Part shown: in pieces, positions 3,668-50,189 of the stretch
Layout of the letters: each line of letters starts with the position of its first letter
Position numbering within the stretch: the stretch's first letter is position 1
From: Lepidurus packardi
Lineage: Eukaryota > Arthropoda > Branchiopoda > Notostraca > Triopsidae
Direction: 5' to 3'
DNA: 64,000 bases
Assembly (NCBI GenBank): GCA_023053545.1
Contig: JAKZAN010000005.1
Span: 1,302,001-1,366,000 of the forward strand
Program-made: the position numbers and the translations under genes
Notes under the pieces: generated by a model
Database searches by the model: none
The model's input: only the letters and a program-made list of their open reading frames with translations
Told to the model about the DNA's origin: nothing

Positions 3668-6600
3668 ATGGAGTTTCAAGAACACAAAGTTCTAGAGCAA
3701 GGCAAGCTGAACGACGGCGCGGATCCGCATCATGGCTTCAGTTTGGACCAGGACATGCAAGAACAAATCCGACAGGCTTCCCAAGATATTCGCGAAGAGG
3801 CTCTTCATCATGCTGGCTCGGAATTCGGCAGCCATGCTAAGAACCAGGAAAGCCCCAAACACGAGTCAGCTGCGGCTTTCAGTCCCAAGCATGAGGAAAC
3901 TCCAGCCTTACTGACTTTCGGAGAGCCACACGATCACAATCATGGCGGCGACAAGGACAAGCCAGAAGCTGCAGAAACTAAAGAACCCAGCAAAGCCCAC
4001 GAAAGTCCCAAACATACGGAGCATCAACCCATTGATCTGAAGGAAGAAAAGCCCGCTGCTAAAGATATTCGGTCCGAAGACGTGGAAAAGCAGTCCGAGG
4101 AAAGCTCGCCGGTCGCTGAGAAGCATGAAGAGCCCTCTGCTCCTCCCAAGCCCTCTCCTGAACCCAAAGCAGCAGAGAAAGCCAAAGAAGCTGAACAGAA
4201 AGAGCCTAAGCCAGAGAAAACGCCAGAGAAAGTCAAGGAAGAAGAGAAAACGACGCCGGAAAAGAAAAGCAGTCCTCAAGAAGAAAAAGGCAAGCCTTAT
4301 GGTGTTCTGCGGTCTGAAGACTTGATCCAAGAAGCAGAAAAGAAAGCCGAGCATCTTTATCCTGAAATTCCTCAGGAGCAGGCGGAACAAGACAAACCCA
4401 AGACGCGTCAATCCCCCCAGCAAAAGCAACAATTGGAGCAGGCCTCGGGCTCTCTCTTCAATCCTCGTAAGTGTTTCTGAATCGAGCCAAATTGTTTTTC
4501 TTTAATAGAAAACCACCAAGACCTTCTATGAGTGCATGCATGGGTGTGGGCTTTGGTGTTTTTGACTTTCTTAACTATCGCTTCTTTTGCACATTTTTTA
4601 GGCTCCTGGCTGGACGCGACACGTCTGGATCCCAAAGGTAGTATTTGCACCTCTTCCTAAAACTCTCATTGTATTTCGAAAGTAGCGCCGACGACGGACT
4701 AGGGGCGGTCACGTGGGAGCGGGTTTATTGATCACGTGGGAGTGTTTATTGATTTTCTAGCCCGAGTTCGAGACGTCCCGCCCTGTGCCTTGTACCCGAC
4801 AGACTGGGTTGGCGATTTGCCTACATGTTGCAGACGGGTTATTTTATTATTATGATGGGTTTGGAATTTACCCGTAGAGCCATAGAGGGGGTTGCATTAA
4901 GAGCTTTATAAACAAACACGTTCTCCGGATTTAGTGACAAACGGGTGGACGGTGTCCTGCTTCAAAAATGACACTAGGATGTCAGTCTTCTAACAGTGAT
5001 TTTTTTCTCTGCTAATGGAGTGAAAGTTTGAACGATTCTCAACGAAAACTGGTGAGAATCGTTAACCTAAGCAAATGCATTTCCAATCCACTTTTCAACT
5101 CGAGTGACACCCGGTTGTCACTCTTTTTCCGGAGAACGTTTTGCAACAACCTGACACGCTAGTCTCATTTAATACGTCTGGGTTTTACCAGAACTGGTTA
5201 ATTTATCCAAAGCAGCGTTTCTTTGCGCAAACTTTCGACGTCATACTTCTGCAGCGTAAATCGGTCTAGAATAACTCGAGCCAGATTAATGCTCCATAGC
5301 GCATTTGCTCAGTTCGAAGGTAATGAGATAGACCAATTTCAGTCAGGTATGGATGAATTCAAGTCAGTCTAGTCAGTTCGATTACTTCCGTTGCAGGCTT
5401 TTGTAAGGGAAAAAGGGGTGGAAACGTTGGCGTCAGTAGAGGATCTCGCGAGTAAGGCCCGTATTTTTGTCCAGAGCAGGGACTTGGTGCCAGCAGCTCC
5501 CAACGGTCTTATTGACGCGAGTTTTAGGTGTGCTGTACTAGCGCCCCGTCGTTGCATTATCGGACGGTGACGGCAGGAACGCCAACTAAGTAGAGCTCTC
5601 TTTCTGTGTTGCTCGGCCTCGTAGCGGGAACAAAAAGCGTGGAGCTGGTCTCCCGTGCACTCGAAATTCGACGCTTGCGAATTTGTGACTTGAAAACCTT
5701 GGATAACTGTTAGCGTGTCTCTCTTTTCCGGAACAAAGTTATGAGCCGTGTGGAAAACGTTCCTGTCATGGCTCTTTTACCACGAGATCGAAGTGAGTTT
5801 CAGTTTGCTGCTATACGTACCTTTATTTAATTTTAATGTGGAGATTTGGTATTAATCCTTCCTTTCCATTAGCAGAAATAGTAACTATCCTTCATCCATT
5901 CTGTGCTTTCCATTCATCCATTCCTGTAGTTTTTGCAGTCCGGATCATTTTTACTCACCAAGGGTTCGAACTATATGAATTTATCAAGCAAGTTATAAGG
6001 ACAGCTATTTAAGGCTTTTTTTTCATTGATAACCGGAATTTAGCCTAATGGAAAGCTTTTCTTTGGTCTGGATCGATGGCAATTTTCCTCACGGCATCAC
6101 CAGAATGCGCCAACTAGAATGACATTGCATTTTTGTGTCTTTTGCAGACCTCATGGGTCAGGTGCCAAGTTTATTTTCATCGCTTGGCACCATGGTCTCG
6201 ACGACGAAACCCGGGCCAATTCTTTTTAAACCTTTCAGCTCCTGTACAGGGTTCACATTATCTTTAGGTGACTAATAGAATAAGGGTGGAATATCTTTTA
6301 AGGACGTTGTTTCGTCGACAATGTTGGCGCCACCATTGTTAGTTTTTATTAGAAACTCTACTGAGGGATGCTTCCCATACTTAAAAACTGTAGTATTGTA
6401 AGAAACGTTGAAAATTCTTTGAAGTTCCTAAAGGTTTGAATTAAACTAAATTGTTTAGAATTCAATTCCCATACTAAAGTAATGTTGGAACCATTGGCTC
6501 AAGCCGGTCAGCAATGAAAAATGATCGGCTGTTTAAAAAGTAGAGGTGTTTCTTATACTTGGAAACTATGGAAAAGCTGTAACTTGTTGACAATTCGTAA

Positions 6601-33391: not shown

Positions 33392-33750
33392 GAAACCTTC
33401 ATGCGTTGCACACAATATTTAATATTTTTAAACTATTTTATTTAATACTTAACAGCGCAAATTCCTAACTGCATCATTGTGCACTAACGTTTCAACTTTA
33501 AAGAGCAATAGCCACGAGTATAGCGTATTGATATTTGGATGGATTCTTATTGTACACATTATTCTAAAAACGGGAAAATTTGTTTAAAATTTTTCTGACT
33601 AGCCGTTCCTGAGTTATGGGCTTGCGAAGTTTTTTGCATTTTCCCGCCACGGGCGCGTGACGTAGATAGTGGAGGCGCGGCCCAGGAGCGCTTTGTTATT
33701 CACTGGCACTGTATAGACTTCTTCTGTGCTTCCTAAGTTTTAGTGAAAAA

Positions 33751-34191
33751 ATGGCAAGTAAGCTGCCATCAGAGTCGATTACTAAAAGTTCTGGTAACCA
33801 GTGTGCTGCTTACGGTTGTAAAAACTATGTTACTGCTGGTGTAGGGATGTATAAATTCCCAAAAGATGCACAAAGAAGACGGCAATGGGTTTTGCAAGTA
33901 CAAAGGACTAGGGCTGATTTTGTGGAAGCCCAAATGAGCAAGTGGGTGTCTCTCTGTGGTGACCATTTCACCGAAGATCAATTCGACAGTAGTGTTGATC
34001 GACAGTTAGCAATGGGACTTAGGGCAAAACGTCGTGGTAGGAGTTTGTTGCCAACCGCTATCCCTACTAAGTTTGATAGGCCGGCTATTGTGTCTGGGGT
34101 GCGAAGTCCACCCAAACCTCGGAAAACCTCAGCTATTGAGAAAAGACAACGCCATAACGTAAATATACTCCAACGTTTGAAGACCAAATAG
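33751..34191 (+). CDS. THAP-domain protein, 146 aa, transposon-borne
   Basis: Single open frame with a clear C2CH THAP zinc-binding domain at about residues 18-107. It has C18-x4-C23, then C69-x2-H72 (in SLCGDHF), a conserved GVGMYKFPKD turn, the W in the KWVSLC segment and the closing AIPTKF motif (AVPTxF in the family). THAP domains bind DNA and are found in P-element and Kolobok transposases and in proteins tamed from them. After residue ~110 there is only a short basic tail and a stop, with no nuclease core. It therefore looks like the N-terminal DNA-binding part of a transposase cut short; a functional THAP-only protein cannot be ruled out. Confidence 0.8.
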   Translation: MASKLPSESITKSSGNQCAAYGCKNYVTAGVGMYKFPKDAQRRRQWVLQVQRTRADFVEAQMSKWVSLCGDHFTEDQFDSSVDRQLAMGLRAKRRGRSLLPTAIPTKFDRPAIVSGVRSPPKPRKTSAIEKRQRHNVNILQRLKTK

Positions 34192-34231
34192 GGAAACACT
34201 AACACTGCCACGTGGCTTTGGCATTGGCGAC

Positions 34232-34383
34232 CTTTGAGCCCTATATGGCTCAAACTGGTAGGCCTGAGCACATTGTTGAATTACGGGCACAGGAATGACA
34301 AAAGCCTGGTCAAATTCCGTCCCTTCATCTTCTAGAAAGGGGCTTCTATCACAATAATCGGTCTCGTCAAAACCTTCTGCCAT
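34232..34383 (-). pseudogene. First exon of a YQFEP-motif protein, orphaned inside the TTAA element
   Basis: Reading minus from the ATG at 34383: MAEGFDETDYCDRSPFLEDE and onward, acidic, then QAYQFEPYRAQ and a donor-like GT at 34231. A short acidic N-terminus followed by a YQFEP/YMFEP motif resembles the start of many invertebrate proteins carrying the P2X7 cytoplasmic-domain homology; this is from memory of the family and uncertain. No downstream exon can exist on the same strand inside the element because the THAP gene follows at once, so the gene is presumably broken. Confidence 0.4.
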
Positions 34384-34661
34384 TTTACTCGTTGAATATC
34401 GCGTTGACACTTCGAAAGTACACAAAACACACGGTCAGCTGAGCGCCCAGGAAGCTTAGCCCTCCACTATCTACGTCATCAAGGCCACGTGACCGCGTTG
34501 GCCAATGGCAAAATATGTATCGTTTGAATTTTAGACTTCTTATTTTCTTTTTATCTAGGTTATGTTTTCGCGTATGATAAAAAGACCCATAAAGTTAGAA
34601 CATATATTTGTTACTCCTTTTAATAAGACAAAGTTGTTTTTTGGTGGCTATTGCCCTTTAA

Positions 34662-35797: not shown

Positions 35798-35897
35798 NNN
35801 NNNNNNNNNNNNNNNNNNNNNNNNNNNNNNNNNNNNNNNNNNNNNNNNNNNNNNNNNNNNNNNNNNNNNNNNNNNNNNNNNNNNNNNNNNNNNNNNN
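35798..35897. other. Assembly gap, 100 N
   Basis: Exactly 100 N, the usual placeholder for a gap of unknown size. Sequence on the two sides may not be truly 100 bp apart. Confidence 0.99.
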
Positions 35898-36085
35898 TAT
35901 CAGCTTAACGGATGAAAGTTGCGGGTCTTTTCTTCTTCTCCAAAGGATGATGCAAAGCCAGGGCTGAGCAGGGAGGAGGGAAAGCATCGCACACCACACG
36001 ACAGGCTTGTCTTGACCAATGCGCAATCTCCTTGAACAAAACAATTACATTTTAATAAAGTTTTACTGAACAAATAAAAAAAAAT

Positions 36086-47500: not shown

Positions 47501-50189
47501 AAAAAAATGAAAATCAGGGAAAATTTATTTTTTCAAAGAGGATTGAAACCTTAACTCGAATGTTGGGGTGTCGGGGGAAGATATACAACCTGTCGTTAAA
47601 AACCCCTAAATGACTCGTCCCTTTTCCACTCGTATACAATACCAGGGACGTTTTAACGACCCCGAGTGATTAAAAACTTGCCGAGAGCTTCTGAAAATAT
47701 CAAAAGAAAATTAAAAAGAAGACCAAAGTTATCGATCAGTGCTATTTGGTGGTATTGCCGGATAGTCACTCCATTTTGCAACGAGTGTCCGATCTGTTTT
47801 CAGTTTTCAGTTCCAAATTGGGGAGCAAATGGGGAAAATTAGTCGTAGAAGGGTCAAGTCAGGTCGAAGATAAATCCAAACTTGAGAGCCTACACAACGT
47901 GTACCAACCAAAATGCACAAAAGGTTTCTGGAAGGAGCGCACTTGTCCAAACAATGGGAAAGACCTCGTTTTTCCGAGTATCATTCGCATATGTCGTGCT
48001 GTCCCGTCCAGAAACTTTGGGGGGGGGGGGGGGGGAACCAAAAATGACCCAAAATTCCAGAGGTTTGTCTTGTAAATAGATCCATAGCTTGTTCGCTCTA
48101 CTTTCCAAACAAGTTGAAAGCTGAGCGCCCAGAAATCAACCCAGTACCCCTTTGCGTTTTGAAAGATTTCTGGAAAGTTTGCATAGAGTAAGAGATCCGA
48201 GATCAAGCATCACATCACCTCCACTTTCCTCTCAAGCAAGTAATTGCTAGAATTACATAAAGACAGCCAGCAACTCTTTTTTGTGTGTGTGTGGCTTGAA
48301 CTTGGGAACATTTGAAACTGTCTCTGGTTTTACTGGCGGCGCGTGTGGGCTCGTGTCAAATGTCCACTTTTCGTTGCGGGGAGCATATAAAATATATATA
48401 TATTATATTCCTGGGCATTTTGAGTTGCTCGACGAAACTCCCAAAGAGCAAATAAATAAATAATACCAAAAAACTTCCCCAAGTCAAGGGTCACTGGTCC
48501 AAGCGGGTTATCAAGGAGCTCGTAATGAGGCTGATTTATAGGTCTGCTCATTGGCATAAGCAGAAAGCGTACTCGGTAGTCCATCCGAACCGGTCCTTAC
48601 AAGCCTTACAAGCCCCATAGCCAAAGCGCCGATCTTTCCCCGAGTGCAAAGGTTAATGCTGAGGAAGGACAAACTTTTTCGTTTTTGTTTCAATTTTAAA
48701 GGATTTTTTTAGCAATTCCCGTGGACTTGGAGTTGATGGAAAGCAACCTTAACTCGAATGTTTTATGTTAATTTTAAATTTTTACAAAAATGGATCACAA
48801 TTGGATGACAAATGGATCACAATTTTTTTAAAAAAATTGATACCTTGGACCACACTTTTCCCTTTTAGCTTTATTACAAATAAGAATAAATTGTAAAAAG
48901 TTACTACCGTGGACTCGGATGGGTTTAGCTGAATTGGACCGAATGAAAGCTTAATTCGAATGTTTTATTTTAATTTTAAATTTAAAAAAAATTATACTGT
49001 GGACCACACTTTTCCCTTTTTTCCCCTTTTCACTTTTTCCTTTTCCCTTTTAGCTTTATTAGAAATAAGACGAAATTTAAAAAGTTACTAGCTTGGACTC
49101 GGATGGGTTTAGCTGAATTGGACCGAATGAAAAGCTTAACTCGAATGTTGGGGTGTCGGGCGGAAGACGGCCAATTTCTGAGCTTTTTTCTTGTAGAGGA
49201 CAACGATTTCGCCGAGGGCAGAGAATGCGTTAATTGCGGCGCTTTGTCAACGCCGTTATGGCGGCGGGATGGTACCGGCCACTTTCTGTGCAACGCATGT
49301 GGTCTGTACCACCGCATGAATGGCATGAACCGACCGCTCGTCAAGCCAGCACGACGTTTGGTAAACAAGACATTTGACATAACAAAATTTTTCTAAAAAA
49401 AAGTTTGGGGGTAAACCGTATAATAAAAACACATGCTTGTTTCCCTTTGACGCGTTGCTATAGTCAACTTCCCGGCGAATCGGGCTCTGCTGTTCGAACT
49501 GCTCCACGGTGACGACTTCGCTGTGGCGTCGGAATTCCCAAGGTGATACCGTGTGTAATGCCTGTGGCCTCTACTTCAAGCTGCACGGGGTGAACCGTCC
49601 GTTGGCCATGAAGAAAGATAGTATCCAGACCCGTAAGCGAAAACCTAAAGCAACATCCAAACTCGAGGCCCTGTCCAATGTGGTAACCTTAGCTAGCAAA
49701 GCGTCAGCTTCGACTTCGTCGTCCTCGCATGAAGGCCTCAGTTCGGGGATTGTCATCAAAACAGAACCCAACATGAGCTCCAATCTGTCAGCGGCCAGCA
49801 ATTCCAACTCGGTTTTCAACCATTCGCCCATCACCACACCCTCGCCCCATTACCGCACCGAGTTGAACAACTCACCTTTCAACTTCCGACAGCAACAGAG
49901 TCCGGATAGCAGTACGTACTACAACCGCTCACCGTTGTACGCGACACCGATGCATAATAGCTCCAATCCGTATTCCCTGTCCCCGCAACGGCCTCCCAGC
50001 GATGAAGCGTACGCGGCCTATGGCAAAGAAGAGTTTGGTCATGCGGGGTCCTATGCGTACGCCGAATCTCCGTATAGTACTGCGACGAATCACACGTACC
50101 CTTCCCGCATCGTCATGGCGACTTCGGGGATCGGCGTCGGTTTGATGGACGGTGATGCGCGCTTTAGTCTTCCCATGGCTCAAACCTAA
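44579..50189 (+). CDS. GATA-type transcription factor A (GATA4/5/6 class), 612 aa, 6 exons
   Basis: Exons: 44579-44842, 45457-45815, 46240-46310, 46988-47242, 49197-49360, 49464-50189; 1839 nt in frame. Nuclear DNA-binding protein for WGATAR sites. Two class-IV zinc fingers of form C-x2-C-x17-C-x2-C: residues ~327-351 ([20 protein letters not shown]) and ~381-405 ([20 protein letters not shown]), then [21 protein letters not shown]. The RKRKPK tail places it with GATA4/5/6 rather than GATA1/2/3. The ~310-residue N-terminus is Ser/Asn/Gln/Tyr-rich, as in activation domains, and the C-terminus is Ser/Tyr-rich. IVIKTEP at the exon 6 middle is a sumoylation-like site. Intron 4 is 2 kb with internal duplications. 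First ATG is 44579; the longer frame upstream starts with GTG. Poly(A) signal at 50211. Confidence 0.95.
46407..46480 (+). repeat. Dispersed repeat Q, copy 2 (GATA A intron 3)
   Basis: Matches 738-811 in SPTLC2 intron 2 over ~74 bp at about 80%. Confidence 0.6.
47545..49165 (+). repeat. Degenerate duplications in GATA A intron 4
   Basis: CTTAACTCGAATGTT occurs at ~47549, 48750 and 49136, with a variant at ~48952. Two ~185-bp units (48744-48945 and 48950-49127) share TGGACCACACTTTTCCCTTTT, AGCTTTATTA.AAATAAGA and GGACTCGGATGGGTTTAGCT. GAATGTTGGGGTGTCGGG at 47552 recurs at 49143, immediately before the exon 5 acceptor. A run of 17 G lies at 48019-48035. Confidence 0.65.

Follow-up and report, generated by a model that had tools for sequence, protein, structure and literature searches.

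The stretch of 64,000 nucleotides analysed here (the window) contains a 1,156-bp DNA transposon flanked by TTAA duplications (33498-34661), and it is almost certain that this element is non-autonomous and arose by internal deletion from a Kolobok of the Kol0 lineage, whose complete form of 4,359 bp carries a transposase gene and, converging with it, a second gene called KolX. The anatomy of the element, its gene content, its insertion at TTAA, its multiple copies in the genome and the many distinct internal deletions among them are all seen directly. Such a two-gene element, together with a derivative at six sites that has KolX without the transposase core and long-term purifying selection on KolX, makes a role of KolX in transposition testable, and a pair of subterminal inverted sequences that co-varies between families yields a concrete sequence-level prediction of how the THAP domains of Kolobok recognise the element ends.

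Anatomy of the window element

The features of the element are collected in Table 1. An earlier note on this DNA had described a Kolobok-like element bounded by TTAA, with 14-bp end repeats of which 13 bases match, a perfect 18-bp inner inverted pair, a plus-strand THAP ORF and, on the minus strand, a YQFEP-containing exon of a second gene, and all of these were recovered here. The ends, AGAGCAATAGCCAC and AGGGCAATAGCCAC, agree at 13 of 14 positions, and the inner pair, TGACGTAGATAGTGGAGG, occurs twice in the window at up to 3 mismatches, against 0.02 occurrences expected from shuffles. The plus-strand ORF contains a THAP domain (E 1.1e-13, 52.1 bits; cut-off 23.9), and the minus-strand ORF opens with an ATG at 34383; in the full-length copy (L031) this frame begins the first of the three exons of a gene.

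On the map of that copy, position 699 is joined to position 3891 in the window element, where the two alignments share 4 nt, of which one does not match on the left side. What is kept is exon 1 of the transposase and about 63 initial codons of KolX exon 1, after which the minus-strand frame continues in the antisense of the THAP exon until its stop. The donor of intron 1 is retained and the acceptor deleted; because the acceptor is lost, the THAP frame enters intron 1 and ends at an in-frame TAG, which is also present in intron 1 of the full-length copy. Elsewhere in the window, a run of N of about 100 bases lies at about 35798-35899, some 1.1 kb to the right of the element, and ORFs at 504-1849 and 48986-50189 resemble, by eye, serine palmitoyltransferase exons and two GATA zinc-finger exons.

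Table 1. Parts of the Kolobok derivative, in window positions
Feature	Position	Strand	Remark
TTAA target-site duplication, left	33498..33501	.	read, and mapping of copies
Terminal inverted repeat, left	33502..33515	+	begins AG (RR)
Subterminal inverted pair (18 bp), left arm	33658..33675	+	likely transposase (THAP) binding site and/or promoter element
THAP-only ORF, 146 aa	33751..34191	+	transposase exon 1 running into intron 1 to in-frame TAG
KolX remnant, 84-aa ORF with YQFEP	34129..34383	-	overlaps THAP ORF
Internal deletion junction	34193..34196	.	full-length positions 699 and 3891 joined, ~3.2 kb lost
Subterminal inverted pair, right arm	34461..34478	-	18/18 identical to left arm
Terminal inverted repeat, right	34644..34657	-	ends CT (YY)
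TTAA target-site duplication, right	34658..34661	.	read, and mapping of copies

The complete element and its transposase

Copy L031 (C16:1235953-1240311, 4,359 bp including both TTAA) is the one uninterrupted full-length copy among the copies fetched. Its gene models, both free of interruption, give a transposase of 9 exons and 804 aa in the orientation of the window and, on the opposite strand from the other end, KolX with 3 exons and 226 aa; the modelled introns of both genes are of the GT..AG type. The view that the window copy is a deletion derivative of a two-gene element, which full-length copies lacking the minus-strand gene would have refuted, is supported by this copy, which carries the THAP transposase as well as the minus-strand gene. 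The earlier note had also hinted at a second, little-studied protein in full-length relatives: the protein is there, and 'little-studied' was an overstatement, as it is KolX, which has been named and tied to the ballast domain of P2X7 (PMC9587614).

The transposase of L031 matches the THAP domain of Pfam with 49.9 bits (cut-off 23.9), and a Mutator-like match of 19.6 bits stays under the cut-off of 26.5. The motifs DGR/DSPG, TDRH, DVWH and SSVE, picked out by eye, would agree with the DDE plus C/DxxH signature that PMC9587614 gives for Kolobok, and it is on these motifs and on the position beside KolX that we call the enzyme DDE-like. A candidate zinc-finger motif of the H2CH type, HVDHPNPLFPKCLH, was noticed by eye in the same protein, and an H2CH motif is named for Kolobok transposases in part of PMC6004289.

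Between its TTAA sites L031 has the termini AG..CT (RR..YY), and it is inserted in what looks by eye like a reverse-transcriptase ORF; when its flanks are joined with one TTAA, the frame is open across the joint for 119 codons. The element-free site is represented by three other genomic copies, which span the target with 92-94% identity over bases 2-404 of the 404 in the query, and by a fourth copy which spans it over 66-404. A second full-length copy (L047/L048) has its transposase exon 9 interrupted by other sequence. Over the part aligned with L064 the transposase gives a dN/dS of 0.11, with dS above 1, and comparisons with younger copies give 0.34 (L056), 0.43 (L057) and 0.90 (L048, 17 changes).

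KolX, the second gene

Once spliced, KolX of L031 matches P2RX7_C with 35.8 bits, above the Pfam cut-off of 23.5; this domain was not found when single exons were searched, and only the spliced protein gave the match. Its closest solved structures are P2X7 receptors, with an E value of 0.0034 for the protein alone and 4.3e-8 with a profile of four KolX sequences, and the seven cysteines of KolX are present (WCxCxxC, CC, C, LPxC). Kojima and Bao (2022, PMC9587614) reported a gene of this name from Kol0 Kolobok elements and suggested that the ballast domain of P2X7 was derived from it; on sequence grounds the second gene of the present element is KolX of that lineage. With the C-terminal ballast domain of P2X7 and the Nanor proteins, as presented in the available part of PMC7016195, it shares WCxCxxC, CCR, a lone C, LPxC, FP and GQYxG; the difference is that KolX here is a gene of the element. 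As for the GDP contacts of P2X7, a structure alignment read by eye keeps R546, while H547 corresponds to F, R574 to E and R578 to K; GDP binding by KolX is unsupported, the contact residues being only partly kept.

A Pfam search of the genome for P2RX7_C returned 7 matches, none of them in the window family, presumably because single exons score too low; the same search of 14 control genomes returned 0. Five of the seven loci were fetched (L067-L071), and they represent a second, distant KolX family; at four of these loci (L067-L070) the opposite strand carries a transposase with about 30% identity to that of the window family; at L071 a transposase match was looked for and none was found. The spliced KolX of L067 reaches 54.5 bits. 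Adjoining this second family is a tandem array with a 20-bp unit in about 112 copies (TGAATTAATTCCTTACGGAC; L067:2-2241), which is also matched at L069 and at none of L068, L070 and L071.

KolX has been under long-term purifying selection, with dN/dS against the diverged L064 of 0.24 overall (ballast part 0.13, N-terminal part 0.58). For KolX and transposase alike these ratios are rough, since dS against L064 (1.3 and 1.7) is near saturation. Recent constraint was not seen among young subfamilies, where dN/dS is 0.76-1.0 over 19-28 substitutions. The KolX frame is open from end to end in 10 of the 11 loci aligned and interrupted in the remaining one (L057). KolX is not needed in cis, because 4 of the 15 junctions considered below remove its start codon (position 4081). 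No published role of KolX in the transposon was found among the matches listed, from mostly non-subscription literature.

Copies in the genome and their insertion sites

The genome searched comprises 108.6 Mb in 344 contigs. The window element found 53 matches in it (best 40 of 157 candidates scored), and its ends recur elsewhere, where a lack of other copies would have refuted the earlier note: 27 left ends (best 40 of 84 candidates scored) and 25 right ends (best 40 of 93) have at least 96% identity. In addition, TGACGTAGATAGTGGAGG occurs genome-wide 28 times forward and 28 times reverse at up to 2 mismatches, against 0 and 1 for the reversed pattern used as control. Among the 28 mapped copies with both ends seen, 27 have TTAA at both, the exception being L066 with a left end of TTAT; for 9 more rows of the mapping at most one end is seen, and in L036 the match on the right ends one base short. 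Beyond TTAA the flanking sequence is unlike in most copies, and the 8-nt right flank is shared between L035 and L044 and between L056 and L058.

Several minor observations were made on these sites. Ten of the 27 young left ends lie within C1:4148417-4781569, a stretch of 0.63 Mb, for which local hopping and segmental duplication are both possible. Copy L039 is inserted at a perfect palindrome, aacccacc-TTAA-ggtgggtt. Foreign insertions are nested in five Kolobok copies, at 762-770 (L044), 3938-3944 (L057), 4131-4139 (L059), 260-267 (L060) and 235-243 (L061) in the coordinates of the full-length copy, and they show overlaps of 7-9 bp which resemble target duplications of other elements.

Deletion derivatives

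The junction of the window copy was seen once among the copies mapped; L002/L038 was considered as a second copy of the same derivative and rejected, with a junction of 668/3911 against 699/3891. Six recurrent classes were distinguished, namely A (1484/3923, 5 copies), B (959/3937, 3 copies), C (1389/4115, 2 copies, with 163 nt of unmatched sequence at the junction), D (two deletions, 1306/2983 with 3616/4142, 2 copies), E (1348/2977, 6 copies) and F (1628/4122, 4 copies, with 107 nt of unmatched sequence at the junction). Singleton junctions exist beside them, and that of L058 holds 5.6 kb of unmatched sequence. In total 15 distinct junctions were tabulated, class D being entered by its outer bounds; left out of this count were L008, L012 and L061, whose right side is unresolved, the old and broken L065 and L066, L064, which has no left part, and the full-length or interrupted L031, L047/L048, L056 and L057.

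As to the origin of these forms, the transposase would cut at the TTAA ends, and gap repair that stops early after excision would leave deletion derivatives, some of them with short templated filler at the junction. If repair is interrupted in this way, templated filler is to be expected: 9 of 10 bases of the class E filler, AGATCGCGAA, are copied from adjacent sequence, the filler TCCAGGA at one of the class D junctions copies adjacent sequence as well, and no template is apparent for the class A filler. The window copy would be mobile only in trans, through an intact copy.

Class E (L049-L054) has a complete KolX, with the transposase core gone, at six sites with six different left flanks (C4:7639.5k, C6:10114k, C3:10646k, C3:2961k, C1:1881k and C1:3271k). 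Five of its six KolX proteins have the same sequence, from which the sixth departs at one residue; the class may be a recent amplification relying on transposase from elsewhere.

The subterminal inverted pair

The pair is not the same in all families. In class E (L049) and in L043, L055 and L058 the homologous place holds a different perfect pair of 20 bp, and family III (L075, L076) has a third version with arms alike at 17 of 18 positions. Measured from the element ends, the cores in the families with a pair are found at 154-161 bp on the left and at 174-183 bp on the right. TGACGT is read in 9 of the 10 arms of five families, and its first base is about 82-108 bp upstream of the start codon in the cases that show both. 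For the 12 bases beyond TGACGT, the two arms within an element agree at 12, 11, 10, 7 and 8 positions in the five families, the last two being the old copies L077 and L078. The true left-right pairing thereby gives 48 matches of 60 against a mean of 31.4, and only 2 of the 120 possible pairings reach it, the second being the exchange of the two old copies. No pair was clear in L073, nor beyond the termini in L066; L065 has a recognisable arm on the right alone, and the sequence fetched for L074 does not include its right end.

A comparison of the young family with the class-E subfamily locates the divergence between them. The non-coding arm regions are 67.0 and 71.7% alike, the terminal parts 81.0% (right, 179 bp) and 91.5% (left), and the first half of the THAP exon 83.6% against 95.5% for the second half, while transposase exons 2-9 reach 96.7-100% and KolX 93-98%. 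THAP codons 1-72 differ by 25 replacement and 10 silent changes (dN 0.17, dS 0.26), and the remaining codons of the exon by 4 and 4 (dN 0.03, dS 0.09). The THAP half is thus raised in silent divergence as well, and the ends, arms and THAP half together look like a block that is older or was exchanged, a pattern unlike that of positive selection acting on THAP alone. A scan for sigma-70-type promoters is irrelevant to an animal element.

In the simplest reading, the arms are bound by the THAP domain and are inherited with it as a set; the domain would then bind the subterminal pair at both ends, in front of both genes, and a promoter role of TGACGT additional to THAP binding is possible. In its full form, this reading would make the pair, whose arms precede the two genes at about 160 bp (left) and 180 bp (right) from the element ends, a site for the THAP domain of the element itself, changing together with it between families and serving both the assembly of the ends and, in a KP-like manner, the shut-off of both genes by transposase or by THAP-only products; so extended, it is tentative and leans towards the unlikely, and an exchanged block would also explain the raised silent divergence in the THAP half and the equally diverged right terminal part. 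Inspection of the arms by eye for the known THAP target consensus gave no match. The CREB/ATF site has TGACGT as its core, and we consider it unlikely, with some weight nonetheless, that the pair is a promoter element for a host factor before both genes rather than a site for the transposase. The distance of the core from the start codon and its presence in nearly all arms agree with such an element, the divergence of the arm regions falls in non-coding DNA next to a THAP half with raised silent divergence, and exchange of a whole block would explain the divergence without a change of specificity; however, a fixed host site needs no match between the arms of one element in the 12 bases beyond TGACGT. 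Gene conversion rather than binding might keep the arms alike, as gap repair allows one inverted repeat to convert the other, but this appears quite improbable to us: the identity of the arms ends after 18-20 bp, and their flanks are, by eye, unlike.

Retention of the THAP exon

In the 15 junctions, the left side retains 667-1,628 bp and the right side 218-1,383 bp. None of the 15 breaks falls within 220-661, where the THAP exon ends at 661 (P 0.0036; for the 11 young junctions alone, 0.016), and five fall within 662-747, just beyond it (P 0.0075); the uniform break model behind these P values is crude, and they are a rough guide only. The only copy which breaks within the THAP exon, at 497, is L065, which is old and outside the junction count. 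At the same time, 36 of 39 loci have an open THAP ORF; the other three are L065 and L066, both old and broken, and L060, where it is unreadable owing to an insertion near its start. Purifying selection on the THAP exon was looked for and not seen in 25 young copies, whose 11 substitutions comprise 1 silent, 10 replacement and 0 nonsense changes, where 22, 72 and 6% are expected under neutrality. Two indels in the exon are both in frame, too few to count. In these young copies the exon has 11 substitutions in 408 sites, against 12 in 249 for the left non-coding part.

Two explanations of this retention have to be weighed. The 142-147-aa THAP-only products might bind the subterminal sites and repress transposition or the transcription of both genes, in the manner of the KP protein and the 66-kDa intron-retention protein of the P element. 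All 15 junctions keep the whole exon and a third of them break just past it, while the right side is trimmed to as little as 218 bp with the KolX start codon lost in four; the ORF is open at nearly all loci, retention of intron 1 in the full-length copy would yield the same 146-aa product through the shared in-frame stop, and the lower number of substitutions per site than in the left non-coding part is a weak hint in the same direction. Repressors of this kind are made by P elements, according to the part of PMC7776569 available. Against such a repressor stand the 25 young copies without purifying selection, the break inside the exon of L065 and the crude break model; a long cis requirement on the left would, moreover, give the same retention, and we rate the repressor as possible, if rather doubtful. 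That the left 660 bp are retained as a cis requirement for transposition, and not for a THAP product, is a serious possibility, though still short of probable. The same junctions fit it, but about 218 bp are enough at the right end, the left part of L065 measures 497 bp (this copy is old, however, and may not have moved in that form), and T2-MITEs, presumed short derivatives of Kolobok, suggest that no long end is needed (PMC6004289, in the part available). Neither THAP retention in Kolobok derivatives nor a co-varying subterminal pair in Kolobok was found in print among the matches listed, which come from mostly non-subscription literature.

Relation to known elements

TTAA duplication (in 27 of 28 copies, and with element-free paralogous sites), 5'-RR and YY-3' termini (AG..CT, in the window copy as in L031), the THAP domain and KolX, with the scores given above, together place the element by its features in the Kol0 lineage of Kolobok, as a family which we did not find named, and the Kolobok-like identity proposed earlier is thereby upheld. 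It is hardly conceivable that the element is a piggyBac or a P element. PiggyBac likewise uses TTAA and P elements likewise carry THAP, but RR/YY termini are the rule that parts Kolobok from piggyBac (PMC9587614, accessible part), and the termini here are RR/YY, not the other kind that piggyBac has at TTAA; P elements make 8-bp duplications (PMC7776569, accessible part), whereas TTAA is found here, and KolX adjoins the transposase in two families.

The Kol0 Kolobok elements, as far as PMC9587614 was available, share with the present one TTAA duplications, RR/YY ends, a transposase with DxxH (here by eye) and a KolX with the P2X7 ballast motif and seven cysteines. They differ in that THAP, present here, has 0 occurrences in the main text of that paper, and in that a co-varying subterminal pair is absent from the available parts of it. 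The Xenopus Kolobok transposases (XKol; Hikosaka and Konishi 2018, PMC6004289, seen in part) share THAP (C2CH, P-W-F) with the present transposase and have DDE and H2CH motifs, of which it carries putative counterparts by eye, and their AVPTIF box corresponds, by eye, to AIPTKF here. Loss of catalysis with DNA binding kept is proposed there as a way for XKol to suppress transposons; XKol are domesticated genes in Xenopus, whereas the THAP-only ORFs here lie inside deletion derivatives. The P element of Drosophila, with KP and the 66-kDa repressor (PMC7776569, again in part), resembles our element in its N-terminal THAP, its subterminal inverted repeats, its internal deletions with a truncated product and the in-frame stop in a retained intron; it belongs to another superfamily, makes 8-bp duplications and has no KolX, and repression in the present element would be a parallel that we infer.
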